NCBI GenBank assembly: GCA_945876035.1
Contig: CAMCMU010000027.1
Span: 1-63,428 of the forward strand
Direction: 5' to 3'
DNA from: Schlesneria paludicola DSM 18645
GTDB lineage: Bacteria > Planctomycetota > Planctomycetia > Planctomycetales > Planctomycetaceae
DNA length: 63,428 nucleotides
Position 1 is the first letter of the stretch, and each line of letters starts with the position of its first letter. The notes under the pieces are model-generated. The model searched no databases, had not been told where the DNA came from, and worked only from the letters and a program-made list of their open reading frames with translations. Positions 4,323-37,159 of this stretch are shown here, in pieces. The translations under genes were made by a program, and so were the position numbers.

Positions 4323-5102
4323 TTACGCGAACTCCGGCTGCCGACAGTTCAGTTGATCTTTAAGCCGAGTAACAATACTGGAATGCATCTGGCTGACGCG
4401 GGACTCCGAGAGGCCGAGGGTCGAACCAATTTCTTTCATCGTCAACTCTTCGTAGTAATAAAGAATGATGATGAGCCTCTCATTGCGGTTGAGACCTTTA
4501 GTTACCAATCGCATCAGGTCTCGCTTTTGAATGCTGCGAGTCGGATCTTCGCCCTTCGTATCTTCAATGATATCGATTTCGCGGACATCCTTATAACTGT
4601 CGGTCTCATACCATTTCTTATTCAGACTGACGAGATTCACAGCACTCGCTTCAGCCTTCATTTTTTCGTATTCCTCCACAGGAATGACCAGTTTCTTGGC
4701 GATCTCGGTATCCATCGGCGGGCGGCCTAATTCCGCCTCTGCCTCTTTGCGAGCCGCTTCCAACTTGCTGGCCTTGCTTCGAACGAGGCGAGGTACCCAG
4801 TCCATCATTCGCAGTTCGTCGAGCATTGCGCCACGAATACGCGGGACACAATATGTTTCGAATTTCACGCCACGATCGAGATCAAAAGCTTCAATCGCAT
4901 CAATGAGTCCGAAAACTCCTGCCGAGATTAAGTCATTCAGATCCACGCCATCAGGCAACTTTGACCAAACCCGTTCGGCGCTGTAACGCACCAAGGGAAG
5001 GAAACGCTCAATCAGCGAATTGCGCAAGTCCTGATTCGTTTGGTCCTGCTTAAATTCGATCCAAAGCTTAGCAATGTTGAGTTCAGAGATCTTGGTAACC
5101 AT
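4323..5102 (-). CDS. fliA: RNA polymerase sigma factor, FliA/WhiG family (sigma-28)
   Basis: The 259-residue product has the full FliA layout. Region 2 covers about residues 25-95 (LVRYSAERVWSKLP, DLISAGVFGLIDAIEAFD, KFETYCVPRIRGAMLDELR). Region 3 covers about 110-180. Region 4 covers about 205-255, with a helix-turn-helix (LTMKEIGSTLGLSESRVSQM). FliA-type factors direct RNA polymerase to late flagellar and chemotaxis promoters. The start is secure: GGAGGG lies seven bases upstream of the ATG. FlhA lies upstream on the same strand, which supports a flagellar role. No anti-sigma factor FlgM is visible, and the 750-base gap to flhA suggests separate promoters. Confidence 0.93.
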   Translation of the reverse strand: MVTKISELNIAKLWIEFKQDQTNQDLRNSLIERFLPLVRYSAERVWSKLPDGVDLNDLISAGVFGLIDAIEAFDLDRGVKFETYCVPRIRGAMLDELRMMDWVPRLVRSKASKLEAARKEAEAELGRPPMDTEIAKKLVIPVEEYEKMKAEASAVNLVSLNKKWYETDSYKDVREIDIIEDTKGEDPTRSIQKRDLMRLVTKGLNRNERLIIILYYYEELTMKEIGSTLGLSESRVSQMHSSIVTRLKDQLNCRQPEFA

Positions 5103-5525
5103 TCAACCCTCCGTGGACTTGTGCGTGGGACCTTCCGGAGGATTCTCCGGAAACGGTCGCGATTTCAATATCATTGTTGTAAATCGAACATCGCCATTGC
5201 AAAAAAAATCTAATGGCAGCGGACATCAACTACTAAAAATTCAACCACGAAAACTGGACTCAAAACACATTCATTAATTTCCGGAAAACACTCCGGCTCA
5301 ACCTCTCGAAGGACATGACGATCACAATTGCAATCCGTTCAATGAATACTCAACTGGCCATACTTCATCGGCTCTGCGTAGCCCAGATCTTCAGCAAATT
5401 CAGATTATCTACCCCAGATTCCGCAATCGAAATGAATTCTGAAAATCCGGAGATTTGCCTTAAATTGCTGAAAATATATCATCAACATTTAACGTTCGTT
5501 CAGTGAGCCGACGAATCCACTCCTG
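5103..5525. other. AT-rich intergenic upstream of fliA
   Basis: Notably AT-rich (about 5170-5500), with no supported gene. It probably holds the fliA promoter and 5' leader. In many bacteria flhF and a MinD-like fleN sit between flhA and fliA; neither is present here. Confidence 0.45.
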
Positions 5526-5768
5526 TCACTTGCCGATTAGCGGACTTGCTGTCCGGAATTCCGAGCGTCCACAATTGAGCAAACAGTCACTTTTCTTTTT
5601 AAACACGCTCTCCATGAGGCCCGTATCCGCTCGAGATTTGATCAAACGCACCAACCGTTCTACAACACCGACAGCGGTAGGCTCGGCGCACCAGGACTGT
5701 TCGACAAGCGAGGCCAACAAATCCACCGCGGGATCAGGAGTGTTGAAGGAGCGAATCGAATTTTTCAT
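5526..5768 (-). CDS. Candidate 80-residue protein between flhA and fliA
   Basis: A minus-strand frame of 80 codons lies 80 bases after flhA and is co-oriented with flhA and fliA. The product starts MKNSIRSFNTPDPAVDLL and has an Ala/Val/Leu-rich helical-looking middle (AVGVVERLVRLIKSRAD). The ribosome binding site is weak (CTGAGAT). No family is recognised. Its position between two flagellar genes is the main argument for it; it may also be chance. Confidence 0.3.
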   Translation of the reverse strand: MKNSIRSFNTPDPAVDLLASLVEQSWCAEPTAVGVVERLVRLIKSRADTGLMESVFKKKSDCLLNCGRSEFRTASPLIGK

Positions 5769-5850
5769 GAAGATCTCAGCTCGAATGAGCCATTGTCAGT
5801 AAATAGTGTGGGCAAAGTTTTCGACGATTTACCGTTCAAGTCGTTCGGTC

Positions 5851-8052
5851 TTAGTGGGGAACAATGAACGAGGGGGACAGCGTGGCCAGACGTTCCACAA
5901 AAACGTGTGTCCCTTCGGCGTGGCTCACCGAACGGCGCGGCTGTGGGAGTGCTTTGATCGCATTCAGAGGAATCTGAACTAACGATTGAAGACGAATGTC
6001 GCGAGGAATTTCCTGGAGACTGAGCACGGCAAGCTTGGGAAGTGATCCCTCGGAAATGCGTCGCAAGACCGGGCGCAGTTTCTGACCGCAGACAACCACA
6101 GGAGAATGACCGGCACGCAGGATCTTTTTCGTCTGCCTGGCGAGTTCGCGAACAAGACCTTCCGTAGTCTGTGGCGACAAGGAGATCCTCGATTGCGGTT
6201 CGGAATTTTGGATTCCTTTGAGCAGAAGTTCTTCCAACGCAGGATCAAGCGTCATGGCCGCCACGACATCATTTTGGTCACGATAGGGCTGACAAATTGT
6301 CCGGCTCATGGCCTGACGCACCAATTCTGTGAGAATGGCCGTATCACGGGTATGGTTCGCATGTTCACCAAGAGTCTCCAGAATCGTCTCAAGATCTCGG
6401 ATGGGAACACGCTCGCGAAGCAGATTGGCAAGCACTTGATGGACCTGCGATGGCTTCAGGAGTTCGGGAATCAACTCATCAACAACTCGCGGAGCCGATT
6501 GACGTAGATTGTCCAGCAATTGATGAACCTGTTGTCGGGTGAGCAATTCATCGGCGTGAGATCGGACGACCTCGGTCAGATGCGCAATTAAAACATTGAT
6601 CGGTTCAACGATTCTGTATCCGAGTTCCTTGGCGCGATTTATTCGAGCTGGTTCGATCCACTTCGCGGGGCGTTGCGATGCGGGCTCATGAATTTCGATG
6701 CCCGCTAATTCACCGCTAACCAGCCCTGTATCGATAGCGAGTAACTCGTCTGGGCGAATTTCACCGGAGGCGACCGTCACACCACGCAGTCGGATCTGAT
6801 AGGTTCTCTCGCTGACTCGCATGCTATCGCGAACCTTGACCTTCGGCAAAATGATTCCCAACTCTTGTGCGATGCGATGCCGCAGGCCGGCGATCCGCTC
6901 CATGAGATCTCCACCGACCTCGGGATTGGCGAGGCGTATTAATCGAATACCGAGTTCCAACTCGATCGGCTCGACAAATAAATGATCCTCCGGCCGAAGA
7001 GGCGATTTGATGGAACGCTGCTCGGCTGCCGCAGCAACTTGCTGAAGATGTTGATGATCTGCCTGATGACGCCGTGTCCCCAAGTTCTTGCCGACCATCG
7101 CGCAACCCGCGCCGAGAACAACGAGAGGGAGCATCGGCAATCCGGTGAAGGCCAAAGCGAAGAGTGCCGCGGAGGCGAGATAAAGCGCTGCGGGCTCTCG
7201 CAATGTTTGGCCAATCAGATCGTCTGAAAGACTGGCTTTCGTGGATGAGCGAGTCGCCAGAAGTGCCGCAGCAAGTGCAATCAAAAAACTTGGAAGCAGA
7301 GTGACAAGTCCATCACCAATAGCCAGCACCGTAAAGACTTCAACGGCTCGACTCGGCTTCATCCCGTGTTGAAAGATGCCGATACTCAAACCACCAATGA
7401 TGTTAATCAAAGTGATGAAAATTCCGGCAACGGCATCGCCTCGCACAAATTTTCCAGCACCATCCATTGCCGAATGAAAGTCGGCTTGTGCCGTGACTTC
7501 AAGTCTCTGCGACCTCGCTTCGTCGGCAGTGATTCGCCCAGAGTTCAGATCAGCATCAATCGCGAGTTGCTTTCCCGGCATTCCGTCGAGAGCAAATCGT
7601 GCCGCCACTTCGCTCAGTCGAGTTGCCCCCTTTGTGACGACGACAAATTGAACCACAACAACAATGGCGAACAAGATCAGCCCTACAATCAACTGGCCTT
7701 GGGCAACAAATTGAGCGAAGGCTTGAATGACTTCGCCGGCAGCATGAGTTTCATCCGTGGCCGCTCGTGTCAGAATTAGTCTTGTTGAGGCGATATTTAA
7801 AACGAGACGCGCCATCGTGGCTAAAAGCAACAGCGAAGGAAACGCACTGAAATCGAGCGGCGACGCGACAAACACGGTCGTCAAAAGAATGACCATGGAG
7901 AGTGTGATGTTTGCTGCCAACAACACATCCAAGATCGCGGGTGGCAATGGCACAATGACGACCAGAATCGACAGTAAGATCAATAGCGGAAAGACAAGTC
8001 CCCACGACGAGACACTCTGTCTATGAATATTCAAATGACGGTCAGTCGACAT
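5851..8052 (-). CDS. flhA: Flagellar export gate protein FlhA
   Basis: The 733-residue length and layout match the FlhA/type III secretion export-gate family (FHIPEP). The N-terminal ~320 residues are membrane-spanning (LLILLSILVVIVPLPPAILD and further segments). The cytoplasmic FHIPEP loop lies near residues 150-190 (GATRLSEVAARFALDGMPG, DADLNSGRITADEA). A C-terminal cytoplasmic domain follows from about 350. FlhA forms the nonameric export ring that hands flagellar substrates to the membrane channel. I place the start at the ATG at 8052, preceded by GGAG. A GTG at 8064 would add four residues. The other export genes (flhB, fliP/Q/R) are absent from the window, so the flagellar genes are dispersed. 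FliA lies downstream on the same strand. Confidence 0.93.
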   Translation of the reverse strand: MSTDRHLNIHRQSVSSWGLVFPLLILLSILVVIVPLPPAILDVLLAANITLSMVILLTTVFVASPLDFSAFPSLLLLATMARLVLNIASTRLILTRAATDETHAAGEVIQAFAQFVAQGQLIVGLILFAIVVVVQFVVVTKGATRLSEVAARFALDGMPGKQLAIDADLNSGRITADEARSQRLEVTAQADFHSAMDGAGKFVRGDAVAGIFITLINIIGGLSIGIFQHGMKPSRAVEVFTVLAIGDGLVTLLPSFLIALAAALLATRSSTKASLSDDLIGQTLREPAALYLASAALFALAFTGLPMLPLVVLGAGCAMVGKNLGTRRHQADHQHLQQVAAAAEQRSIKSPLRPEDHLFVEPIELELGIRLIRLANPEVGGDLMERIAGLRHRIAQELGIILPKVKVRDSMRVSERTYQIRLRGVTVASGEIRPDELLAIDTGLVSGELAGIEIHEPASQRPAKWIEPARINRAKELGYRIVEPINVLIAHLTEVVRSHADELLTRQQVHQLLDNLRQSAPRVVDELIPELLKPSQVHQVLANLLRERVPIRDLETILETLGEHANHTRDTAILTELVRQAMSRTICQPYRDQNDVVAAMTLDPALEELLLKGIQNSEPQSRISLSPQTTEGLVRELARQTKKILRAGHSPVVVCGQKLRPVLRRISEGSLPKLAVLSLQEIPRDIRLQSLVQIPLNAIKALPQPRRSVSHAEGTHVFVERLATLSPSFIVPH

Positions 8053-9099
8053 CCCAGTCTCCACAAAGACGGCAGTTCGGCCGTCAATGGACGTGATGAG
8101 AAATTTATTTGATTGAATGGGGGAGAGTGTGAGCGGGCGTTTGATATCGCAAACCTTTCGGTGTGTCCATACGAACGGCCGCTAAAATAATGACGTAACT
8201 CGTTAGATCGGCAGAACCTGCCACACGTTAACGGTATCGCTTCGCTGCAGCCGTGACTTGTGAAATGTGGTCCTGCCAGAAATCGGAAAATTCGGCCGAA
8301 ACGTCCGTCTGATCGATGATCCCTGACAGACTTTCTTTCCTAGTGGTGCTGATCATCAATCGACCGGCGCGCGAACTGGAGCTCTCATCGGCCGACCGAG
8401 ACCGTACGTAAAATTTGAGGGCCACGATCGTCGATTCCGATTACCGCGAGGGTGAGATACGACAACCCTTCTGAGGTCCGATCCGTTTCACTCGGAGATC
8501 CTCGCCTGTCGGAAGAACTGGCCGGGAGACGCAAACAACTGTCGCGAAACAGAAGCATCCTGTCGCGTGATACTCAAACACCTCGTTGCTGTGCGAAGTC
8601 GACAATCGTTCGAGGGGAATCGAGTCGTGTGTTTTCAAACGCTTCACCGTTTCAGATTAAACTAAACAAACCTGACACATGCTCCGGCATCAAAAGAACC
8701 ACGAAAAAACAAGATTCCCCGCAATACTGATGCTGCGTGATGATGTTATTCCTCGCAATGACTTCAGGAAAAAAATGGTCAGCCGACCAAGACCTTGGAG
8801 GGAGTGAACAGCCCGTTGACAAACTCAGAGTGAGCGTCTTCCCAGCCTCAACCACGGAATGCCGCGCTGCCGCCGCATGGATGATTTCTCGGCGAACAGC
8901 GGGCACTGCAGAAACGATGATGGGATGAAAGCAACGGCCTGAGATGTTCGTGACAACTTCCGAACAGAGATGCGAGTCGTCGCACGTAGTTCAGGAGCGA
9001 TTTAATCGCCGTGCTGCGGAACGGCGGGTGTGATGCGTGGATGCAATCGATGACTAGGAGTCGCTGTATCAAGGCCGGTTCTCAGAGGTGAGTGGCCTG
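8053..9099. other. Intergenic, about 1 kb, one weak small frame
   Basis: No recognisable gene. On the minus strand, 8228-8425 is a GTG-initiated frame of 65 codons ending FSDFWQDHISQVTAAAKRYR, which looks protein-like. It has no ribosome binding site and no known relatives, so I do not call it a gene. The remainder may be the decayed flank of flhA and the leader of the flhA transcript. Confidence 0.4.
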
Positions 9100-11697
9100 C
9101 TACGCGGCCCGACGCGATTTTGCCACAGTGCCCAGCATCTTCCGCTGTGAGTTCGCCGGCTTGCTACTTCCAGCCAATGCCCACCGCACGTAGAATCGCA
9201 CGCGTCTGGGCCAGTATCGGTGCGGACGTGCGGCGACGTAGACGGTCCGCTTTAACATCTGCAGCCACGCGGGGTCATTCAGCAAACTATCCAACGAGAG
9301 TCCAATATACGGCTGCCAATGCGTACGGTAATTCTTACTGCCATCGGCCGGCAGGTCACCGGAGAAATCGCGTGGACAGCCCGCAATATCGTAGCTCTCA
9401 GCAAACGATTTTGGCGTCTGCTCGTAGCGGTACAAAAACTCGAAGTCGATCAGCTTCAGGCCCTCGTGCCGATCGATAAGAACGTTGTCGATACTCGCGT
9501 CAATGAGTGCGTAGCCGGCTGCGTACACGTGCCGTAGCGCCTGGATCGACTGTCGCGCCACGTCGACGCTCATCAACCAACCTGATGATCGCTGATACTG
9601 CAGTACATCGTCGTAGTAGGTCGAGACCACCGACCGTGGGCCGGCTTCAATCAACCGAGGAACTTGCGGCACCATTCGCGACAGCTCACGCATCGCCAGT
9701 TCTTCCCGGCGACAGAACCGCTCGCATCCCAGCTTAAACCTCTTGCGGACCGCCAGTTGGCCGTGATACTCAATCAGCTCAACCCGTGTCCGGCGGCCAA
9801 ATCGTGTCAGATCTTGCACCATCGGCGTTTGATCCGAAGTCTCCGCTTGCCACGATTCGATGTATCGACAAATCTGGACTGCCGCTTCCGGCATGGCGAG
9901 GGTGATGTACTCCCACGCTTCGCTGCCGTTATCGCTGGAATGCAACACATTGCAATGACTTTCCGGCCCGAATCCCTCGTTAAACACGTCGCGCAGGTTC
10001 CCTTTTTCGAGCACACGAGCGTTCGTCGCCAGCGGAAACCGCTTCTGCTGCTTACGTGTTAGGGGCAGTGGCTGCGGGTCGAATGCCACAACCACGGCGG
10101 CGGGCGGACCTCCGGAGATCGCCCAAGGTCCGCGACCCCAGTTTCCACCACGAATGTTGTTCGTCACGTGACGTTGCTCGTTGCCAAGCAGCAGCTTTGT
10201 GTTGACGATCGAGAAGCCGCTCTGCTCCAGCAGCGGCACAAGCTTTTCCAGCCCCCCGCGTCGCATCCCTTCGGCCCTGACGAGAAATACGACCAGCCCG
10301 CTGTCCTGTGCACTATCCGGCTCCCGACGCAGCGACTCGCGAATCCAGCGGTTGCGTTTGCTCAACCGCAATAACATGTCGCGAGGAGGTCGCCAATTGT
10401 TTGCTTCCAGAAAGGCATCGAGCCCCGCGCGGGTCACCGTCATCTTCTCGCCGATCCGATTCGCGAGATCAGAGATAATCTGGGGATAGGGATGCTCCGC
10501 CGCCCGAAGACCTCCCAACATCTCTGCCGTTTCCGAGATCCCCGACGACGGACCTTTGTGGTACAAAGCGTGATAAATCAGGCTCAGCAAATGCGATTTG
10601 GGATCTGGCACCTGGCACAGACCCCGATGCAGTACGGCACGGTCCAGCAACTGTTTAGCCAATCGCGGCGGATAGTACGCCATCTTGCCATAGTCTGACC
10701 GTGGCAGACCGGTTTCGGAATAGATATCACAAGGCAGCACGCCGGGTCCCGATTCGACCAACGCCAGCACCTGCGACAGATGCTCGTCATCGACGAGCAG
10801 GTCGATGTCTTCGCCCGGCGGTAAGTTTGGCAGTGATTCAAACCAGCGAAGCACGACGTGCCTTAGCGTCTCGTCGCGAAGCCTCGTCAGCAGACCGGCT
10901 AACCCCAAATCGTGCGGCACATAGTGTCGAGCACCGGCGGGCGATCGCCGGTTGCACACCGGAAACACGATCAACCACAAACCACAACCATCGCCCTTCA
11001 GGCTCACTCGCTGTGGTCGGCCAAGACGTCCCAACAGCATATGGCACAGACAAACTGCCAACGCCATCAGCAGTCCCAGATTGATGCTGCCGCTCAACGC
11101 CACGTGGCTGGCGTGTCGTAGGTTGCGAAACCGTAGTGTGCTGACCGCTGAACGGCTTCCCAAAATCAAGACGTCGGCATTGTTCTGCCGCACGACATTG
11201 CGACAAGTGGCAGCCGTCACATGCGGAGCGACCTCGGGGTAGCGTTCCGCGAGACGCTCCCGTGCTCGCTCACTGGAGACAACGTACAGGTAGCGAACGA
11301 AGCCGGCACGGGCCAGCAATCCGGCAAGCGGCCGACGCCCGGTACCGATCTCAATAAACCGGGTCGCGGGGTTCCAAAGGTCGTGCGGCTGCTCGTCCCG
11401 CCGGAGTGCCCACAAACATTGCGGCATGCGGCAGAAACGTGAGAAAAACGTTTGAATATTTGACCGATCGTTCTCGCGAGAAATGAGGGCGGTCCGTCCG
11501 TTCTTCACCGATAGTCCTTTTCGGAATTTCACGACGTGGGATCGCCTGCGCCAATCAATTTTTTCGGCCACAGCATTCCTGAGCCTCTCATCAAAGTCGC
11601 CAAAATCGCCAAAATCGTCAAGATCAAATTGAGAACAAGGGCTTCGCGTATTTTTGGACGGTGATGGCCCGCCGCCGAACTGGATGACATGCGTCAA
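9100..11697 (-). CDS. Multidomain protein: nucleotidyltransferase-like, NDK-like and protein-kinase-like domains
   Basis: An 865-codon frame; its first codon is TTG and the true start is uncertain (an ATG at 11427 is possible). Residues about 110-180 resemble a Rossmann/methyltransferase fold (IEIGTG, then VLILG). Residues about 260-400 hold a nucleotidyltransferase signature, GEDIDLLVDD (D297, D299). Residues about 467-600 look like nucleoside-diphosphate kinase: FLVRAEGMRRG at the start, NLRDVFN in place of IRGDF, and CNVLHSSDNGSEAWEY, which keeps the phospho-acceptor His (H586). Residues about 630-770 form a protein-kinase-like fold with Lys652 (LAVRKRF), Asp733/Asn738 (IDASIDNVLI) and Asp751 (DFE); the D-N and N-D spacings match canonical kinases. 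All key residues appear intact. Biochemical role and substrate are unknown. Phosphoryl or nucleotidyl transfer to a glycan or lipid is only a guess. No functionally linked neighbour is evident. Confidence 0.8.
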   Translation of the reverse strand: MTHVIQFGGGPSPSKNTRSPCSQFDLDDFGDFGDFDERLRNAVAEKIDWRRRSHVVKFRKGLSVKNGRTALISRENDRSNIQTFFSRFCRMPQCLWALRRDEQPHDLWNPATRFIEIGTGRRPLAGLLARAGFVRYLYVVSSERARERLAERYPEVAPHVTAATCRNVVRQNNADVLILGSRSAVSTLRFRNLRHASHVALSGSINLGLLMALAVCLCHMLLGRLGRPQRVSLKGDGCGLWLIVFPVCNRRSPAGARHYVPHDLGLAGLLTRLRDETLRHVVLRWFESLPNLPPGEDIDLLVDDEHLSQVLALVESGPGVLPCDIYSETGLPRSDYGKMAYYPPRLAKQLLDRAVLHRGLCQVPDPKSHLLSLIYHALYHKGPSSGISETAEMLGGLRAAEHPYPQIISDLANRIGEKMTVTRAGLDAFLEANNWRPPRDMLLRLSKRNRWIRESLRREPDSAQDSGLVVFLVRAEGMRRGGLEKLVPLLEQSGFSIVNTKLLLGNEQRHVTNNIRGGNWGRGPWAISGGPPAAVVVAFDPQPLPLTRKQQKRFPLATNARVLEKGNLRDVFNEGFGPESHCNVLHSSDNGSEAWEYITLAMPEAAVQICRYIESWQAETSDQTPMVQDLTRFGRRTRVELIEYHGQLAVRKRFKLGCERFCRREELAMRELSRMVPQVPRLIEAGPRSVVSTYYDDVLQYQRSSGWLMSVDVARQSIQALRHVYAAGYALIDASIDNVLIDRHEGLKLIDFEFLYRYEQTPKSFAESYDIAGCPRDFSGDLPADGSKNYRTHWQPYIGLSLDSLLNDPAWLQMLKRTVYVAARPHRYWPRRVRFYVRWALAGSSKPANSQRKMLGTVAKSRRAA

Positions 11698-12699
11698 CGG
11701 TTGGCACCGAGCGACGCAAAAATTCAGCCGGCTAGGCGGCGTCTTAGACCCTTACGAGGCGATGGCAGCAGTCGTTTGGCAGCACGTCTTTTCCCAGAAC
11801 TGGACCGTAAAAGAATGGCAATCTACTAAGATTGCATTGAAAATATTCCTCTCGTTCGGGAAAATTTGTGTTATCGGAGACGGCATGGAGAAGCCGGATG
11901 TCTTCCTGAGGTTGGCGTTGATACGGTTGCGGAATGCCGAGCATCTGTTGTTCATTGCCGAAGTGACCGTCGCACTGTGTAACGGTAATCCGCCTAGGGG
12001 GATCGGTAGTTTTGCTGAGGAGATGAGACCATTCGGAACGGCCAGTGGGAGTGACGGTCGGAATTGCGATGCGTGGAAAAAGCCTCGTGAGGGATACCGT
12101 GAATCCGCGACGGGCAGGTGGATCGGCCGGACATTGTCAAGCCGCACCTGCCAGCCATTCCCTCAGTTGACGTTCGCTGAATGCAACGACCAACCACACC
12201 ACCGCCGAGGTCCTCGAGACGCTGGCGGAGCAGGAGAACTACGCGGCGGGAGACGAACTCCGTAAACGTTCGATGGGAGACTATTTTGAATCGGAAGAAC
12301 GATCGCTTAAAATAGATTCGAAAGAGCAGGCCGCTGAAGAAGACGAAGAACACAGACGGGCAGCTTTTGCCAACCGCGTTATGTTCCATCAGCAGGCATC
12401 GCACCATACCGTCCGCGTTACGCTGCCACATGTGGACCGTCTATAGGAACGCTATTGAAGTTCGCTGCCCCCTTAAGTCACTCCGACACGAGCGACGAAA
12501 TTTTTCGATTACGACACGACGAATACCGAAGGCTAACGTGTTTCTGCTATGAGCGTGGCGTTATGGTTCTTTCAAATTCGCAGCGAAGAAGCCAATGGCA
12601 TGCGGTACTGAGAAGATCCTCGACAATGTGATCCGTGTGGCGTGTTTGACGACATCCGGTCACGTATCTGCGGATCTACGATGGTTGGCGGAGTTTGTT
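11698..12699. other. Decayed intergenic region with one orphan coding-like fragment
   Basis: About 1 kb without a supported gene. On the plus strand the frame 12171-12446 is open for 91 codons. It reads protein-like (EVLETLAEQENYAAGDELRK, then an acidic stretch) and has its first ATG at 12273. It could be a gene fragment. Given the transposase remnant just downstream, the region looks like an old insertion graveyard. Confidence 0.4.
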
Positions 12700-12890
12700 T
12701 CGGCGTGCCATCGTGAAGCTGATGCCCGCCGGGAAGTTGGCTGAGCACTTTGATCCGCAGATCGGAGGACCTACTGCAGGGCCATATTCGATGGCCCTGT
12801 GGTCTTCGCCATGGAGTTTCAAAACTGGACTGATGAGGCGGCGGCCGATGCGTACACGTTCAGCGTTCAGCATTGACGTGCAGAGTCAGC
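12700..12890 (+). pseudogene. Fragment of a transposase, frameshifted
   Basis: Two pieces in different frames match one transposase type. The first, around 12711-12790, reads LMPAGKLAEHFDPQIGGPT, close to the N-terminus of a common transposase family (KLADHFDP.GRPTKELY). The second, about 12803-12877, reads VFAMEFQNWTDEAAADAYTF before a stop. A one- or two-base shift near 12795 separates them, and the rest of the gene is missing. It is clearly non-functional. It is of a different type from the remnant at the window start. Confidence 0.65.
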
Positions 12891-13125
12891 AGCCCCGACG
12901 TTCTGCCCTAGGGTGTGGTAGATCACGAAGCCACCGCTCAACCCCGTGACCCAACTGATCAGCATCACCTGCTAATGCTCGGCTCCACATACGCTGCTTC
13001 CCAGCAGAAGGAGGACTGTTCCATACGTCGCGCGTCGATGCTGTGCCGTCTGCGAATCGACGGCAAGCATCTGCGTTTGGCTCAGCGTGGCGGGATCGAA
13101 GTTACAAACAGTTTGCTCAATCGTG

Positions 13126-13389
13126 TCACGGAAATTGGACGTCTTGGCGTCCGAGCATTCCCTTCGGCAACTCCTTGGAGCCGACAATCGTGAGGTTCAT
13201 GCCGATCTGCACACTGACCCACTTTTCGCCCACTTTGACGTTCGTCTTTCCGTTCAAATACCATCCCAGCGAACCCGTTGAGAACTCTTTGACATCGGCT
13301 GTCATAGGAATTCCATTGATCGTAATTTCAACGGGCTTGGCATCGTTGAGAAATTCAGGACGCGTCACGGAACACGTTGATTTGGCCAT
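13126..13389 (-). CDS. Small conserved planctomycete protein of unknown function
   Basis: The product is 87 residues from the ATG at 13389 (MAKSTCSVTRPEFLNDAK). A core of INGIPMTADVKEFSTGSLGW, then GMNLTIVGSKELPKG near the C-terminus, matches a small protein I remember as recurrent in planctomycete genomes and always annotated hypothetical. A longer in-frame start at 13542 adds 51 unrelated residues, so I reject it. The protein looks soluble and beta-rich, with no signal peptide. It is a lone gene in a decayed region. The function is unknown, but conservation makes the gene call fairly safe. Confidence 0.75.
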   Translation of the reverse strand: MAKSTCSVTRPEFLNDAKPVEITINGIPMTADVKEFSTGSLGWYLNGKTNVKVGEKWVSVQIGMNLTIVGSKELPKGMLGRQDVQFP

Positions 13390-14283
13390 ACAATCATCTT
13401 TCGAGGCGGAGTGATGAAAGGAACCGTCAGTTTCCGAGTCTTGGCCATTGCCTCGCGTTCGGTCTTCGATACACAACCCCGCAACCGACGGCAAGGCAAT
13501 CGGAGCGGTGCATGTTAACGATCCGAATACCCGGTTGACCACTCCAACAGAAGCAAGGCCGTAAGTCTATTTGGGAATAAAATAATAGGGCCGCGTCCCG
13601 GAAAGTCTTTTTGGAGAGACACGGGACGGCACGAGTCAACTGGTGAGCGAAAGCGGGACTGGGCAAGGCTACCCAAAAAAACATGCCAGCCCAGAGTCAA
13701 CCAAGTGGCACGCTAATTTTTGAGCGTCGTGCGGATTTTCTCAGAGGCCGAGGATCGAATCCCGTCGTGTTGATGTTCACCAACGTCACCTCCGCGTTCC
13801 GAAAACCGATCCAAATCTCCAAAGAAATACACTCCCAACAAATAAAAGTTCGTCCACACCTCGTCTCCAAACCAATTGACCCTGCCAACAACATGCAGCA
13901 CTGATTCGCAAAGCGTTGACAGCGCATATGAAGGTGACGAGGGTTCGATCCGCACAAATTGACGACCCGTCATATCACTTTGACGACGCCAGTAATTCCG
14001 TACCACGTAAATCATGCAACGACGACACGAATGTTAGCCGATGATTCAAACTCATTGACCCTGAGCGGCTACGGCGTTTCTCTGTGTGAAACTCATGAAA
14101 ACAAGTCTCCCGTATCAAATGCGACGATCGGAATTCGTATGCTGGGAATCGCCGTTCTGTCGTACAAATCCCCAATCACGGTGATCCGCCAGGAAATGTT
14201 TGAATTGGCACGCGGGCTGCTTCTGTTGATCGCTGCGTGCTCGAGGCTGGATTCAATTCGTTCAGAAATAAGGAGGAGTCACA
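13390..14283. other. Intergenic, one hairpin, no gene
   Basis: About 890 bases. The only structure noted is the hairpin at 13594-13628, listed separately. Frames on either strand are short and lack ribosome binding sites. The last bases (14270-14277) carry the strong AAGGAGGA site of the next gene. Confidence 0.45.
13594..13628. repeat. Imperfect hairpin, 7-bp outer and 4-bp inner stem
   Basis: CGTCCCG at 13594-13600 pairs with CGGGACG at 13622-13628, and inside it AGTCT pairs with AGAC. The surrounding 100 bases have a different texture from genic DNA. The hairpin could be part of an interspersed repeat or a terminator-like element. No T-run follows on either strand. Confidence 0.4.
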
Positions 14284-14664
14284 ATGTGGAACCGTACATT
14301 ATTATTCAGCTCTGTGGTCGTAATTGGTCTTTTGTTTTCGCTGAGTGGATCTGTCTTCGCTGAGCATCACGGCCACGGTGAACGCCACCACAATAGTTAT
14401 CGAGGAGATCAGTACCATCATCACCACCAAAACAACTACGGTCGGTATGGATACAGCGGCTATCGAAATCTGAATTATGGATTCGGATATCGTCCGTTGT
14501 TTGTCTCGACACATCCACCTGTTGTTCCTCGTTACCAATACGGTCCTCACGGTTGTCGACATGGGGCCGTTGGTCAGGACTATGGGTATGGCGGATATGG
14601 GTCACCGTACGGGACTAATCTAAGTTACGGAAGCCAAAATTTCGGGTTTTACGTTGGCCGGTAA
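14284..14664 (+). CDS. Secreted His/Gly/Tyr-rich small protein
   Basis: A 126-residue protein with a clean Sec signal peptide (MWNRTLLFSSVVVIGLLFSL, cleavage probably after VFA at about residue 26). The mature region is very low complexity. It has His clusters (EHHGHGERHH, YHHHHQNN) and Tyr/Gly repeats (YGRYGYSGYR, GYGGYGSPYG). Such composition suggests a metal-binding or structural envelope protein, but that is inference. The ribosome binding site AAGGAGGA is very strong and a good terminator follows, so this is a well-expressed single-gene unit. Confidence 0.88.
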   Translation: MWNRTLLFSSVVVIGLLFSLSGSVFAEHHGHGERHHNSYRGDQYHHHHQNNYGRYGYSGYRNLNYGFGYRPLFVSTHPPVVPRYQYGPHGCRHGAVGQDYGYGGYGSPYGTNLSYGSQNFGFYVGR

Positions 14665-14693
14665 TCCATAGAACAAAGTGCGATCTTTGCCCT

Positions 14694-14725
14694 AGCAGCC
14701 ATCGGAAATCCGACGGCTGCTTTTT
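14694..14725 (+). terminator. Rho-independent terminator of the His/Gly/Tyr-rich protein gene
   Basis: AGCAGCC at 14694-14700 pairs with GGCTGCT at 14715-14721. TCGG/CCGA extends the stem after one mismatch, with an AAAT loop. Five T follow. It lies 30 bases after the stop codon. Confidence 0.85.
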
Positions 14726-15701
14726 CTCGCTCTCAAATCGACGGTTGATCCACACCGGTTTAAACGTAATTTTCTCCGGCTGGGGCTAATTAGAGACTCT
14801 CCTTCTAAATCGTCACCGCCGACCAATAAGATTTGCTGATGATGCATGAAGGCTGACGTGCAATCCGTCTTTCCGTATTGCAAAAAAATCACGGAGGACG
14901 TCCCAGGATGTTCCATCGGTTGGCCGTTCGCTGTTAACCTTGAGTTCCGAAAACGTTCTAGCACATTGTGTTCCACACATTCAGGTGGCTTTCGAAGTAT
15001 GCCTTCAACTCGGTCGCCGCCAGATCTCCGCGATTCTCATTCGTGACATCAATACCATCGGTGGCCAGGTCCAATCTGTTTGACCATCCGAGCAATGGCG
15101 GTCGTTGGACCGCAATTTGGCCCAGACATCAAGCACACCATGCAACAGCCGTGGCTCAGCTCACGTTTTTCCGTTTTTTCCACTTTAACAGGCTCGGACG
15201 TTTTGCGTCCGCTCGTCAACTGAGGGTATGCAATAACGTCTTCAAACCGAACCGCTTGTTTATGATTTTCATGGACCGTGGTTCGCTCGAATGATCGATC
15301 TTCGGTGACGAGTCGTTTATCAAACACGACAAACGTACGCCGATGAACAATTCCGAGCGCACACTACCGCCAATCTACCACCCCTTCGGCATTTCAATCA
15401 TCCATGCTCGCACCGAAATCGAAGGTGGCGTAGATTACAGGAATTGTTGCAACAGGAACTTCGACTGACTCCATTTTTCAACAGGCGATTCAAGTTACGA
15501 TCTGATGCCGTCGCCTGCGATCACAAGATTAGCATCCACACTTTTTTGGTGATCCCTTTTTGTGGCCGACGATCTTTCGACCGATGCGTGCAGCTCAGGT
15601 CAACAATTCCGCCCAGAGCAATGACGTTTGAATGACAACAAACGAGCCTCACGAAAGCTCGAACAGCTTTCAATAAACTCCCTCAATAAAGAGTCCGACG
15701 G
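14726..15701. other. Intergenic, no gene seen
   Basis: About 980 bases without a supported coding region. Frames here overlap on both strands and match nothing. Relatives of the downstream acyltransferase gene sometimes follow cytidylate kinase; no such gene is present. Confidence 0.45.
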
Positions 15702-16388
15702 ATGTCCTCGCTGCCAGAAACGTTGCTGTTTGTGTGTCCAAAAAAACGGAACTTGGTTTGGCGAACCGTTCAATTCATCTTGCAAAACTTTTTTTGCGTT
15801 TGGCTTGGGTACAGAGCCCGTGGCCACGAACGACTTGAGGACGAAGGGGGCGCACTGATTCTGGCGAATCATCAAAGTTTTCTAGATCCACTGTTGGTGG
15901 GCTTGCCGCTTCGGCGACCTGTCAGTTTTCTCGCCAGAGACTCATTGTTCAAGATCCCTTTCATTGGCTGGATTCTCAAAAACACTTACGTCGTGCCCAT
16001 TAATCGTGAATCCACAAGCTCTGCCAGCCTTCGAGAAACGATTCGTCGAATGCAGAATGGTTACCTCGTGGGTGTTTTTCCCGAAGGAACACGTTCTGAA
16101 ACGGGAACTGTCGGAGAATTAAAACCCGGCTTCTTGGCTTTCCTCCGGCGTTCAAGGGTCCCTGTTTATCCGATCGGGATTGCGGGAGCGTTTCAGGCAT
16201 TGGGACGACACAGCTGGTTCTTAAAATCATCTCGCGTCCGTGTCGTTTTTGGCGATCCGATTTCTGTCGAGCAACTCCAAAAATTTCAAAGCCGAGACAC
16301 CGATCAAGAACTCATCGACCTCGTCCGTTCGCGAATCGTCGCGTCTTATCAAGAGGCCGAAGCGTGGCGGACGGGCGGAGTTCAATAG
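15702..16388 (+). CDS. 1-acyl-sn-glycerol-3-phosphate acyltransferase (PlsC-like)
   Basis: The 228-residue product has the four acyltransferase blocks. Block I is NHQSFLD (NHX4D, catalytic His-Asp). Block II is around KIPFIGWILKNTYVVPINRE. Block III is VFPEGTRS, which binds the glycerol phosphate. Block IV is VPVYPIGIAGA. It would transfer a fatty acyl group to lysophosphatidic acid, giving phosphatidic acid at the inner membrane face, the substrate for CdsA (encoded at 50876). Length is typical. The ATG at 15702 has AAAGAG upstream. The neighbours are unrelated and the gene appears solitary. Confidence 0.9.
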   Translation: MSSLPETLLFVCPKKRNLVWRTVQFILQNFFCVWLGYRARGHERLEDEGGALILANHQSFLDPLLVGLPLRRPVSFLARDSLFKIPFIGWILKNTYVVPINRESTSSASLRETIRRMQNGYLVGVFPEGTRSETGTVGELKPGFLAFLRRSRVPVYPIGIAGAFQALGRHSWFLKSSRVRVVFGDPISVEQLQKFQSRDTDQELIDLVRSRIVASYQEAEAWRTGGVQ

Positions 16389-34353: not shown

Positions 34354-36105
34354 TCAATCTGAGTCGAACAACTCAGGGCAGAGTTTTTTGAGCTCTCGCC
34401 GCAAATAGCTTTCAACATCCCGAGCAACATCGATTTCGCCAGCATGCGTAGCGATCTTCTCGGCCTTTTCGATGGTCAACTTTCGAATCAATTCCTTCAG
34501 TTCTGGTATGGCGTGCGGCGTGACACTGATTTGACGAATCCCCAATCCCACGAGTAGCGGTAGAAAGAGCGGATTCGTACTCATTTGTCCACAAACACAC
34601 ACCGGAATGTCGTACTTGCGTGCCGCATTCACTACCATCCGGATCAACCTCAAAATCGACGGATCACCCTCTCGATACAAATAGGCAACACCCTGATCCG
34701 CACGGTCGACGGCTAGAGTGTACTGAATTAGGTCGTTAGTCCCAAGCGAGAAAAAATCGACTTCACTGGCAAATTCCTCCGCCATGATTGCCGCGGCGGG
34801 TACTTCAACCATCATACCCACCGGCACATCGCGGCGAAACGGCACACCCTGCTCTTCTAAATCGTCGATAACATCCCCCAAAACCATCCTCGCTTGCCGA
34901 AACTCGAGCAGTGTGGAGATTAAGGGAAACATGATGCGCAGATCGCCCAATACCGCCGCACGAAGTACCGCACGAAGTTGAGTCTTAAACAACTGAAGTT
35001 GCTGTAAGCTCAACCGAATGCTGCGAATACTCAACGCCGGGTTGACGCTTGCGGAGTATTCACCGCGTAGCGAACTAGGCAACTTATCCGATCCCAGATC
35101 AAGAGTCCTGATCACGACCGGCTGTTCTGGAAACGCTTTCAATACCTGACAATAGGCCCGATAATGGTCTTCTTCAGTCGGTTCACGATTTGACTCGAGA
35201 TACAAGAACTCCGTCCGGTAAAGCCCAACCCCGGCAGCCCCCTTCTCTCGGCACGGCTCTGCCTCCGTCGGAAACTCAATGTTTCCCATGACGCTGATGC
35301 TGACACCATCCTGCGTCTCACAAGGAAGCTCTCGTTGAGAATGCAATCGCCGCTCGTGATTGCGGAACCGAACCTCCATGTTGCGATACTTCACCAGTGT
35401 GATGTCATCGGGATCAATGATGATCACACCCTGACTCCCATCGATGATCACGGTCTCCGCCCCAGAGACGTCATCCAAAAACTTGCCGACACCCACAACC
35501 GCTGGAATCTCTAACGCGCCAGCGAGAATGGCGGTATGACTCGTATAGCCGCCGACCTCGGTGGCAAATCCTAACACGAACCTGCGGTCGATATTCGCGG
35601 TTTCGCTTGGCGTTAAATTATTTGCCAGTAAAATGATCGGAGATGTCAACTGAGACAACTCTTCACGCTGTTCTCCGAGCAACAGTCGCAACAGTCGCTT
35701 TTCCAGATCGGAGATATCAACCGACCTGTCGGACAAGTACTGGCCGCCAAGATCTTGCAACCGCCGGGAGTACTGCCGTAGGACTTGACTCGCAGCGTAC
35801 TCCGCTGACTGATGCCCTTGAATCCGACCTTCAATTTCGGAGATCAAATGGAGATCCCGAGCCATCATCAGGTGCGCCGAGAAGATGGCGGCGTACTGAT
35901 CTCCCAACCGTTCTCGTGCCAATTGCTCGTTATCTTGAATTTCTTGGCGCACAGCTTCCATGGCTGCGTGAAAACGCGATAATTCGCCCGGCACAGCCGT
36001 CGTCGAAATCAGACGCTGTGGAATGCGAAAATTTTCAATTCCCAACAACATCGCTGGAGCGATAGCCACGCCCGGAGAAACAGCTATTCCGCGTCTAATC
36101 AACAT
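34354..36105 (-). CDS. ptsI: Phosphotransferase system enzyme I (PEP-protein phosphotransferase)
   Basis: The 583-residue cytoplasmic enzyme takes phosphate from PEP and passes it to HPr. The phosphorylated histidine is in GGYTSHTAILAG (H190). The PEP-binding barrel shows GVGLYRTEFLYLE, VVIRTLDLGSDK and MMVEVPAAAIMAEEFASEVDFF; VCVCGQMSTNPLFLPLL carries the active-site Cys. Length and order of domains match canonical EI (HPr-binding helices, phosphohistidine domain, TIM barrel). It is the last gene of a minus-strand cluster with HPr, EIIA and HPF. No EIIB/C is present. Confidence 0.95.
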   Translation of the reverse strand: MLIRRGIAVSPGVAIAPAMLLGIENFRIPQRLISTTAVPGELSRFHAAMEAVRQEIQDNEQLARERLGDQYAAIFSAHLMMARDLHLISEIEGRIQGHQSAEYAASQVLRQYSRRLQDLGGQYLSDRSVDISDLEKRLLRLLLGEQREELSQLTSPIILLANNLTPSETANIDRRFVLGFATEVGGYTSHTAILAGALEIPAVVGVGKFLDDVSGAETVIIDGSQGVIIIDPDDITLVKYRNMEVRFRNHERRLHSQRELPCETQDGVSISVMGNIEFPTEAEPCREKGAAGVGLYRTEFLYLESNREPTEEDHYRAYCQVLKAFPEQPVVIRTLDLGSDKLPSSLRGEYSASVNPALSIRSIRLSLQQLQLFKTQLRAVLRAAVLGDLRIMFPLISTLLEFRQARMVLGDVIDDLEEQGVPFRRDVPVGMMVEVPAAAIMAEEFASEVDFFSLGTNDLIQYTLAVDRADQGVAYLYREGDPSILRLIRMVVNAARKYDIPVCVCGQMSTNPLFLPLLVGLGIRQISVTPHAIPELKELIRKLTIEKAEKIATHAGEIDVARDVESYLRRELKKLCPELFDSD

Positions 36106-36265
36106 GCGGTGGAATTCGAGAAATTTGTTAAAAAGAGGATCATCATCCGCTCATCATTTCGATTGAGTGTTCTTCAAACTCTAAAACGCCTCTCGACTTC
36201 AATCCGCAAGAGCACGGCCCGTTCTCGAACTAAGGTTCCGAACGCTGGCTGAAACTATTCAACAA

Positions 36266-36568
36266 TCAATTCGCTCGCGCAGAGACCTCAGCAATCTCAA
36301 AGTCTGACTCAATCAAGGTCACCAACTGTTGAACCGCACTTTCTGCGTCTTCTCCAGTGGCTTCAACATTCAATTGCGTTCCTGCATCCGCACCCAACGT
36401 GAGTAGATGCAGAAAACTTTTCGCATCGACACGATTTAATCCTCGAGTCACATTGATTTGGCTGAGAAAAGACTGTGCCTTACGCGCTATGACTTCCAAG
36501 GGCCGCATGTGCAATCCCTTCGAATTGCGAACCGTTGCTTGCAAACTGTGGTGAGCGGAATTCGCCAT
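36266..36568 (-). CDS. ptsH: Phosphocarrier protein HPr
   Basis: The product is 100 residues from the ATG at 36568, with GAGG just upstream; a GTG six bases further up is possible. The phospho-acceptor histidine is in NSKGLHMRPLEVIARKA (H20), where GLHARP is usual. A serine at AKSFLHLLTLG (S51) sits where the regulatory HPr Ser-46 would be, so regulation by an HPr kinase is possible, though no hprK is in the window. HPr passes phosphate from EI to EIIA. It lies between the EIIA and EI genes. Confidence 0.95.
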   Translation of the reverse strand: MANSAHHSLQATVRNSKGLHMRPLEVIARKAQSFLSQINVTRGLNRVDAKSFLHLLTLGADAGTQLNVEATGEDAESAVQQLVTLIESDFEIAEVSARAN

Positions 36569-36688
36569 TTTCACCTCGAGGGTTCTTGTTTGGACGATCT
36601 CGGGAGCTCCTCCAATTGCTCTTGCTTGCAGTCAAAAATTTGATGTGCTCACTCGAGAATTTCTGGACAGCCACCCTTTTCAGAACAT

Positions 36689-37159
36689 TCAAATTTCGTT
36701 GTTGTCCGCCTCTGTCAAGAGTTCCCAAATTCTTTCTGCCGTGTTGCACTGACGCAAAAACTTGCAAAACTTTTCGTTCCGAAGATGCCGCGAGATATTC
36801 TCTAACCCTCGAAGATGATCACCCGGACGATCGGGAGGGGAGATCAAAAGAAACATAACATAAACGGCCTCTCCGTCGAGGCTTGCGAAATCAACGCCAA
36901 CATTAGAGACGGCAATTGCCGCAATCAATTTATCAACGGAAGGATGTTTGGTATGAGGCACCGCGACACCGCGTCCGATACCTGTCGACCCCAATTCTTC
37001 TCGTTTCAGAATCGCAGCAACGATTCCTTCTGTGTCCGATTCCTTGATACTGCCGGTGTTCTGTAACGCAGCCACCATCAATCGAATTGCGGACTCCTTC
37101 GACCCCGCAGGCATGTTCGGAATCACTGCGGCCTGTACAACGAAGTCGCACAACTTCAT
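36689..37159 (-). CDS. PTS EIIA domain protein (fructose/nitrogen-type)
   Basis: A single-domain EIIA of 156 residues in the mannitol/fructose and PtsN superfamily. The phosphorylated histidine is in [14 protein letters not shown] (H69), the signature context for this family. [22 protein letters not shown] is a conserved helix-loop of the same fold. With no EIIB or EIIC gene attached, it is most likely a PtsN-like regulator receiving phosphate from HPr, not a sugar transporter part. AGAGAGG precedes the ATG. It is placed between the hpf and ptsH genes. Confidence 0.92.

Follow-up and report, generated by a model that had tools for sequence, protein, structure and literature searches.

A planctomycete protein with nucleotidyltransferase-, nucleoside diphosphate kinase- and protein-kinase-like domains and its possible tie to surface polysaccharides

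The closest described systems are enzymes that phosphorylate bacterial surface glycans and then modify the phosphate. According to the accessible portion of one report, the eukaryote-like kinase domain of WbdD phosphorylates the terminal sugar of the O-antigen, after which the phosphate is methylated (PMC3482155), and the Klebsiella O7 terminator, as far as the available text of its report goes, performs the same reactions with a different, AmiN-like kinase (PMC11231755). LicD/FKRP-type enzymes of the nucleotidyltransferase (NTase) superfamily move polyol-phosphates in capsule synthesis, as stated in the available part of a third paper (PMC11666461). Here we analyzed a minus-strand gene in a 63,428-nucleotide stretch of Schlesneria paludicola DSM 18645 (assembly GCA_945876035.1, contig CAMCMU010000027.1; the whole stretch is called the window, and its genome G000), the product of which joins an NTase-like, a nucleoside diphosphate kinase (NDK)-like and a protein-kinase-like domain in a single chain.

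As in the O-antigen terminator WbdD of E. coli O9a and in Klebsiella O7 ORF6, a single chain here combines a kinase with a Rossmann-type (there, methyltransferase) domain; those enzymes phosphorylate a glycan and then modify the phosphate. The present chain differs in its NTase and NDK-like domains, which are not described in the accessible parts of those two reports, and in that its own Rossmann-like domain only resembles a methyltransferase by model. The likeness to the LicD/FKRP-type capsule NTases is one of analogy only. This architecture was not described in the open-licence literature searched.

Reading frame, domains and homologues

The program-made list of open reading frames (ORFs) gives 9100-11697 on the minus strand as a single open frame of 865 codons, and all motifs named in the initial annotation were found within it. 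Two homologues with the N-terminal domain, L010 (beginning MKASDLWN) and L109 (beginning MNPRNLWK), align slightly downstream of the in-frame ATG at 11427; this ATG is therefore the likely start, and the first ~90 ORF residues probably remain untranslated. Another candidate start is the TTG at codon 5, and a clear ribosome-binding site was not seen at the ATG. Residue numbers are counted from ATG 11427 unless marked as ORF residues, so that the K652, D733, N738 and D751 first reported correspond to K562, D643, N648 and D661, GEDIDLLV begins at residue 205 and CNVLHSSDN at 492. The features are as follows.

9100..11427, minus strand: probable gene, ATG start, 775 amino acids plus stop; the mechanical ORF extends to 11697, and the start is placed from the homologue starts in L010 and L109
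10933..11382, minus strand: N-terminal Rossmann-like domain, residues ~16-165; from AlphaFold2 (AF2) secondary structure with low to medium predicted local distance difference test (pLDDT) values, and a homologous region in L010 and L109
10528..10914, minus strand: nucleotidyltransferase-like domain, putatively NTP_transf_5-related, residues ~172-300; DxD = D207 and D209 (10801-10809); from alignments A5 and A9
10303..10527, minus strand: helical region between the NTase and NDK-like domains, residues 301-375; from the AF2 model
9868..10302, minus strand: NDK-like domain, residues ~376-520; phosphohistidine H496 (9940-9942); from the Pfam match of L010 and a profile match to NDKs in the PDB
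9223..9822, minus strand: protein-kinase-like domain, residues ~536-735; K562, E575, D643, N648, D661 and E663
9103..9222, minus strand: C-terminal helical tail; from the AF2 model

The three-domain fusion and its order, as initially proposed, are upheld by a full-length homologue together with the homology of the NDK, kinase and NTase parts. The homologue, L010 of genome G272, is encoded in a single open frame and aligns with 38% identity over ORF residues 105-831 (E 1.9e-157), and G272 is counted as belonging to another family of the phylum than the window genome. An assembly chimera, which had been named as a way in which the fusion could prove false, is thus ruled out by an independent planctomycete genome, and the segments are not always separate, since G272 keeps them fused. 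The search of the phylum matched seven of 392 genomes, namely G000, G272, G148, G247, G108, G369 and G270. The NTase and NDK parts occur as a separate gene in G148 (two genes) and G247, the kinase part occurs as a separate gene in G108 and G369, and the G270 match is an ordinary kinase (E 7.8e-4). At the level of genus, family and class, nine of 99 genomes matched, comprising G000 itself and eight with short protein-kinase matches only. A one-sequence scan of genome contigs gave no match, and a two-row scan gave one locus, JABWBM010000162.1 of a Planctomycetaceae metagenome-assembled genome, which is taken as the G272 contig. The NTase-NDK profile A3 matched 6/392 genomes of the phylum, 2/282 of the class, 1/17 of the order of G272 and 2/9 of the class of G148, in draws that overlap and in which the genomes supplying A3 rows match by construction. 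The complete fusion was found in two genomes, G000 and G272.

Homology and fold are clear for the kinase domain. The canonical kinase residues reported initially were confirmed, with K, E, D, N and D invariant in 5/5 aligned members; the profile matches protein kinases at 1e-7, and the best Foldseek match to the PDB reaches 5.5e-07. All 50 PDB matches listed are protein kinases, so that the structure comparison agreed with the kinase fold and gave no match for the NTase and NDK folds among those 50, and the 50 viral structures listed are mostly kinases, some being unnamed. The window protein itself scores below the PF00069 cut-off (16.2 versus 31.7 bits), and the best NCBIfam match of its kinase region is LanKC (4.5e-5). 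The kinase domain is weakly similar to LanKC/LanL and to APH kinases; however, it belongs to a small family apart from these, one that has a conserved C-terminal region of its own, and no lanthionine-cyclase match was found. The kinase profile matched 294 of 392 phylum genomes drawn around G272. Apart from G272, G108, G369 and a G193 fragment, the first three being rows of the profile or their neighbors, the matches listed, which do not include G000, are ordinary kinases with E values no better than 6e-12. An additional 101-residue fragment of a second family kinase copy, L058 (G108:C172, 6062-6364), lies ~4 kb from the intact gene (1436-2269) and by its looks is a decayed duplicate.

It is by way of the homologue and a profile that the homology of the NDK-like domain reaches significance. 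The window protein alone matches weakly and at the domain ends (Pfam E 0.097; NCBIfam 0.13; phmmer against the PDB 0.023 over ORF residues 471-620; PF00334 score 13 bits versus a cut-off of 27), whereas L010 passes the PF00334 cut-off across the whole domain (28.2 versus 27 bits, E 1.9e-6) and the six-row profile A6 matches solved NDKs over profile positions 10-143 (best 1.1e-5). The family phosphohistidine, as first proposed, aligns with that of the true NDK that the window genome carries separately on contig C84, and it is invariant in 6/6 members of A6. Relative to this true NDK, Thr, Arg, Asn and His are retained in the window protein and L010, the Asn not being retained in the other four aligned members. 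The domain may be no ordinary NDK, because in the window protein and L010 the first Lys is an Arg and the E129 place is aromatic (we take K12 and E129 to be the catalytic Lys and Glu of NDK), and because an RGGNW loop, which sits in the segment before the E129 place, differs from NDK. A conserved E129, first read by eye, was rejected by the alignment with the true NDK. The likeness to NDK (PF00334) thus extends, via L010, over the entire domain, and a further difference is that the domain is fused here between two others.

For the NTase domain the homology is moderate, and profile comparison suggests a distant relative of NTP_transf_5. The twelve-row alignment A9 aligned with NTP_transf_5 proteins at an hhalign probability of 81.5 (E 1.1e-5) with the DxD in register, the smaller A5 gave 71.0, and the kinase and NDK profiles used as controls gave 0.1. 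The NTP_transf_5 set came from a PF14907 search of nine genomes, five of which yielded nine matches; the four above the cut-off were used and five weak ones were left out. By hmmscan, 6/12 members of A9 match PF14907 weakly (best E 0.0028), and no NTase member exceeds its cut-off (L076, 15.0 bits versus 31.2). The domain of the window protein has no such match, and the family differs further in having a [VL]LR-x-x-x-x-LP signature where NTP_transf_5 proteins have LKG. PDB sequence searches with the NTase gave no meaningful match, one being spurious. In the AF2 model, D207 and D209 lie at the start of strand 208-212, and the DxD is kept in 13/15 NTase domains.

The initial annotation overlooked a fourth, Rossmann-like domain at the N-terminus. 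By model, its order of strands and helices resembles that of class I methyltransferases, and the Pfam scan returned no match above cut-off for it, methyltransferase families included. The model rose from a pLDDT of 35.3 with a single sequence to a mean of 74.1 with a 12-row alignment (predicted template modeling score 0.54), and in ten-residue blocks pLDDT was 52-95 (mostly 83-95) in the NTase, mostly 82-95 in the kinase and 42-84 in the NDK-like domain.

Recurrent linkage of the modules

The modularity of this NTase with nucleotide-kinase folds is new here. Alignment A5 gave 14 loci in 13/392 genomes, six of which had supplied A5 rows, and a further search added G476, which brings the NTase loci to 15, spread over 14 genomes. 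The genomes that had not supplied A5 rows were matched at the following E values: G302 (3.3e-8), G420 (4.9e-6), G415 (8.6e-6), G201 (2.6e-5), G359 (6.2e-5), G347 (1.3e-4) and G260 (8.6e-4). All 15 proteins were inspected, that of G415 by its start and Pfam ranges, and they sort as follows.

Rossmann-NTase-NDK-kinase: 2 loci (G000, G272)
NTase-NDK: 3 loci (G148, two; G247)
NDK-NTase, in reversed order: 1 locus (G214)
NTase with a thymidylate-kinase-like domain: 7 loci (G454, G302, G420, G415, G201, G347, G260)
NTase with a C-terminus without assigned family: 1 locus (G359)
Rossmann-NTase: 1 locus (G476)

At 13/15 loci the NTase is fused to a nucleotide-kinase fold, NDK-like in six (in either order) and thymidylate-kinase-like in seven; the latter replacement in relatives had also been overlooked initially. 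Four of the seven pass the thymidylate-kinase Pfam cut-off, all of one family (G201, G415, G347 and G260), and three match below it (G302, E 2.4e-5; G454, E 6.7e-4; G420, E 0.088), one of the seven assignments being weakly supported. The NDK part of G214 is assigned through A6, of which it is itself a row.

Kinase genes also lie beside some of these genes. A kinase-motif scan of 18 loci (~278 kb), in stretches chosen around NTase or kinase genes and so without a neutral background, gave seven matches, four in the kinase family itself and three in genes that adjoin NTase genes. Specifically, three of the 13 NTase loci without a fused kinase have a directly adjoining kinase gene. In G214 an APH gene (PF01636, 6.4e-11) and the NDK-NTase gene overlap, the TGA of the former and the GTG of the latter forming GTGA; in G454 the kinase gene lies <50 bases from the NTase gene (PF01636, 1.6e-5), and in G302 a gene with the kinase motif, without a Pfam or NCBIfam match, follows a few bases downstream. 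The other 10 loci showed no kinase motif in the stretches scanned. The products of the APH-type neighbors in G214 and G302 have Rossmann-looking N-termini, but hhalign gave no relation between these and the N-terminal domain of the window protein, and for this reason three shared modules are claimed and not four.

Two further observations concern these loci. Directly upstream of the gene for the NTase with the thymidylate-kinase-like domain, G415, G201, G347 and G260 (L084, L085, L087 and L088) encode a 201-236-residue P-loop protein that begins MIIE[VI]TGEPG[IV]GKTT; no APH-type motif was seen at these four loci, and the P-loop protein may stand in for the kinase. Divergent from the APH/NDK-NTase pair of L064 (G214:C151) stands, at 5070-6107, a gene for a protein with a CHAD domain (PF05235, 1.6e-9), a domain linked to polyphosphate.

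Neighboring genes were scanned with Pfam at nine of the 15 NTase loci, and glycosyltransferase or polysaccharide-export genes stand beside five of these nine. G272 has a family 2 glycosyltransferase and an MptE-like gene (below cut-off), the stop of which overlaps the start of the homologue as ATGA; G302 has a Wzc-like protein and a glycosyltransferase, G454 a glycosyltransferase, G201 Poly_export, and G359 Poly_export and a glycosyltransferase. A sulfatase-family protein and an MBOAT protein neighbor the G148 C56 locus. Moreover, both kinase-only loci of G108 have glycosyltransferases, and one of them also has MBOAT and SGNH proteins and a flippase-looking protein without a Pfam match.

Possible function and rival explanations

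The initial annotation had suggested that the fused domains may act on one substrate in sequence, and the recurrent linkage of the modules makes such sequential action more plausible. Our tentative reading, a real possibility that we would not call probable, is an enzyme of several modules that would phosphorylate a sugar or lipid-linked saccharide belonging to a surface polysaccharide and then elaborate it further. A kinase-first order is proposed after the precedent of WbdD and O7, which use two different kinds of kinase much as a protein-kinase-like domain occurs here in fusions and APH-type kinases occur as neighbors, with the NTase and the NDK-like or thymidylate-kinase-like domain acting afterwards. 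The kinase would use ATP to phosphorylate a glycan hydroxyl in the manner of WbdD and the Klebsiella O7 terminator, a step that we infer from the conserved residues and this precedent. The NTase might then act at the glycan phosphate with a nucleoside triphosphate (NTP) or a nucleotide-activated donor, giving a phosphodiester-linked or activated product, and the NDK-like (or thymidylate-kinase-like) domain could move a phosphoryl group for the same product, either through a phosphohistidine relay or in recharging the nucleotide spent by the NTase or released by glycosyltransferases; these two steps are conjectural.

Several points weigh against this reading. The window gene lies outside any polysaccharide cluster, with flhA on one side and gene-poor stretches on the other; G214 and G476 have no polysaccharide gene among the neighbors scanned, and six of the 15 loci (G148 C36, G247, G420, G415, G347 and G260) fell outside the neighbor scan. 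Apart from that of G454, the thymidylate-kinase-like fusions came in at E values between 3.3e-8 and 8.6e-4, 6/12 A9 members, that of the window included, have no PF14907 match, and the DxD is lost in 2/15 NTase domains (L017 and L109). The NDK-like domain departs at the two catalytic positions described above, and in the NTase-NDK proteins L012 and L017 and the NDK-NTase protein L064 it has no Pfam match at all and is assigned by alignment, L013 having been left out of that scan.

The alternative that survives best, although doubtful, is the activation of a free sugar or polyol, in which the kinase would form X-phosphate, the NTase would convert it into a nucleoside diphosphate (NDP)-linked X, and the NDK-like or thymidylate-kinase-like domain would rebuild the NTP, without any glycan-bound substrate. 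A kinase, an NTase and a nucleotide kinase are the usual set for making NDP-sugars, which the domains found here match; the exchange of NDK-like for thymidylate-kinase-like domains fits nucleotide recycling, and the glycosyltransferase neighbors favor this view as well. However, sugar-1-phosphate nucleotidyltransferases have a different fold, the NDK-like domain departs from a real NDK in its loop and at two catalytic positions, and the genome has its own NDK elsewhere.

It is unlikely that the protein is mainly a non-catalytic scaffold or regulator made of degenerate enzymes. The Rossmann-like domain without a Pfam match, the loss of the DxD in two relatives and the two altered NDK positions would agree with decay, but the kinase residues and the NDK-type His are invariant in all aligned members, and the window protein keeps both aspartates.

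Tailoring of a ribosomal peptide, in which the kinase would phosphorylate the peptide and the NTase add a group to the phospho-residue, appears more unlikely still. A lasso peptide system offers a precedent: for its kinase PsmK and its nucleotidyltransferase PsmN, phosphorylation followed by addition of a group to the phospho-residue is reported in the available part of the source (PMC9266682), and lasso clusters contain kinases and nucleotidyltransferases according to the available part of another (PMC7533575). The LanKC match of the kinase region points the same way, whereas no lanthipeptide or lasso enzyme was present among the Pfam-scanned neighbors, in which precursor peptides were not searched for.

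A defence or toxin-antitoxin element built of NTase and kinase is very improbable and was rejected, given matches in PADLOC and PHROGs that were weak only: such domains are common in these systems, the gene has a patchy distribution and is rich in GC compared with the window, and relatives show weak PADLOC kinase or P-loop matches (L065, mad8, 2.5e-5; L078, VakA, 4.9e-5; L011, PD-T4-6, 0.0018), but the window protein has one weak PADLOC match (E 0.017) and L010 none, phage and plasmid collections lack a match, and polysaccharide genes adjoin five of the nine scanned loci.

Returning to the polysaccharide-modifying enzyme that we tentatively favor, a more specific form of it can be envisaged, albeit as a rather doubtful one: a single-chain assembly line in which a re-tooled, NDK-fold phosphohistidine domain, no longer devoted to nucleoside diphosphates and placed between kinase and NTase, would help to build a phosphate-linked cap or bridge on a surface glycan, with the thymidylate-kinase-like domain as its equivalent in sister systems. 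NDKs are usually seen as housekeeping enzymes; if this form were true, NDK and thymidylate-kinase folds would be interchangeable parts of an unrecognized glycan-phosphate pathway. More broadly, a single NTase family is tied again and again to an NDK-like or thymidylate-kinase-like domain, at times together with a kinase and often amid polysaccharide genes. This may point to an undescribed route by which bacterial surface sugars receive phosphate-linked groups, and it gives a poorly characterized group of nucleotidyltransferases a possible function that can be tested.

Genomic setting

On one side the gene has flhA and a sigma factor gene as neighbors, on the other an acyltransferase gene (15702-16385). 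Its GC content is 0.594, compared with 0.532 in the window as a whole, and in GC at third positions just one of the 28 ORFs of at least 220 amino acids exceeds it. No homologue was found upstream of flhA in the five relatives examined, and the gene was likely gained by transfer. A phage or plasmid origin was rejected, since tblastn against a phage collection and a plasmid collection gave no match, and viral contigs gave none with alignments A1 or A2.

The region upstream of flhA differs among the five relatives, although G007 and G008 are similar to each other. Between flhA and the acyltransferase gene, the window at 8064-15700 contains few convincing genes apart from the fusion gene. Elsewhere in the window, at 34357-37159, lies a cluster of ORFs that by eye we take to resemble enzyme I, HPr and an EIIA-type protein of a phosphotransferase system.

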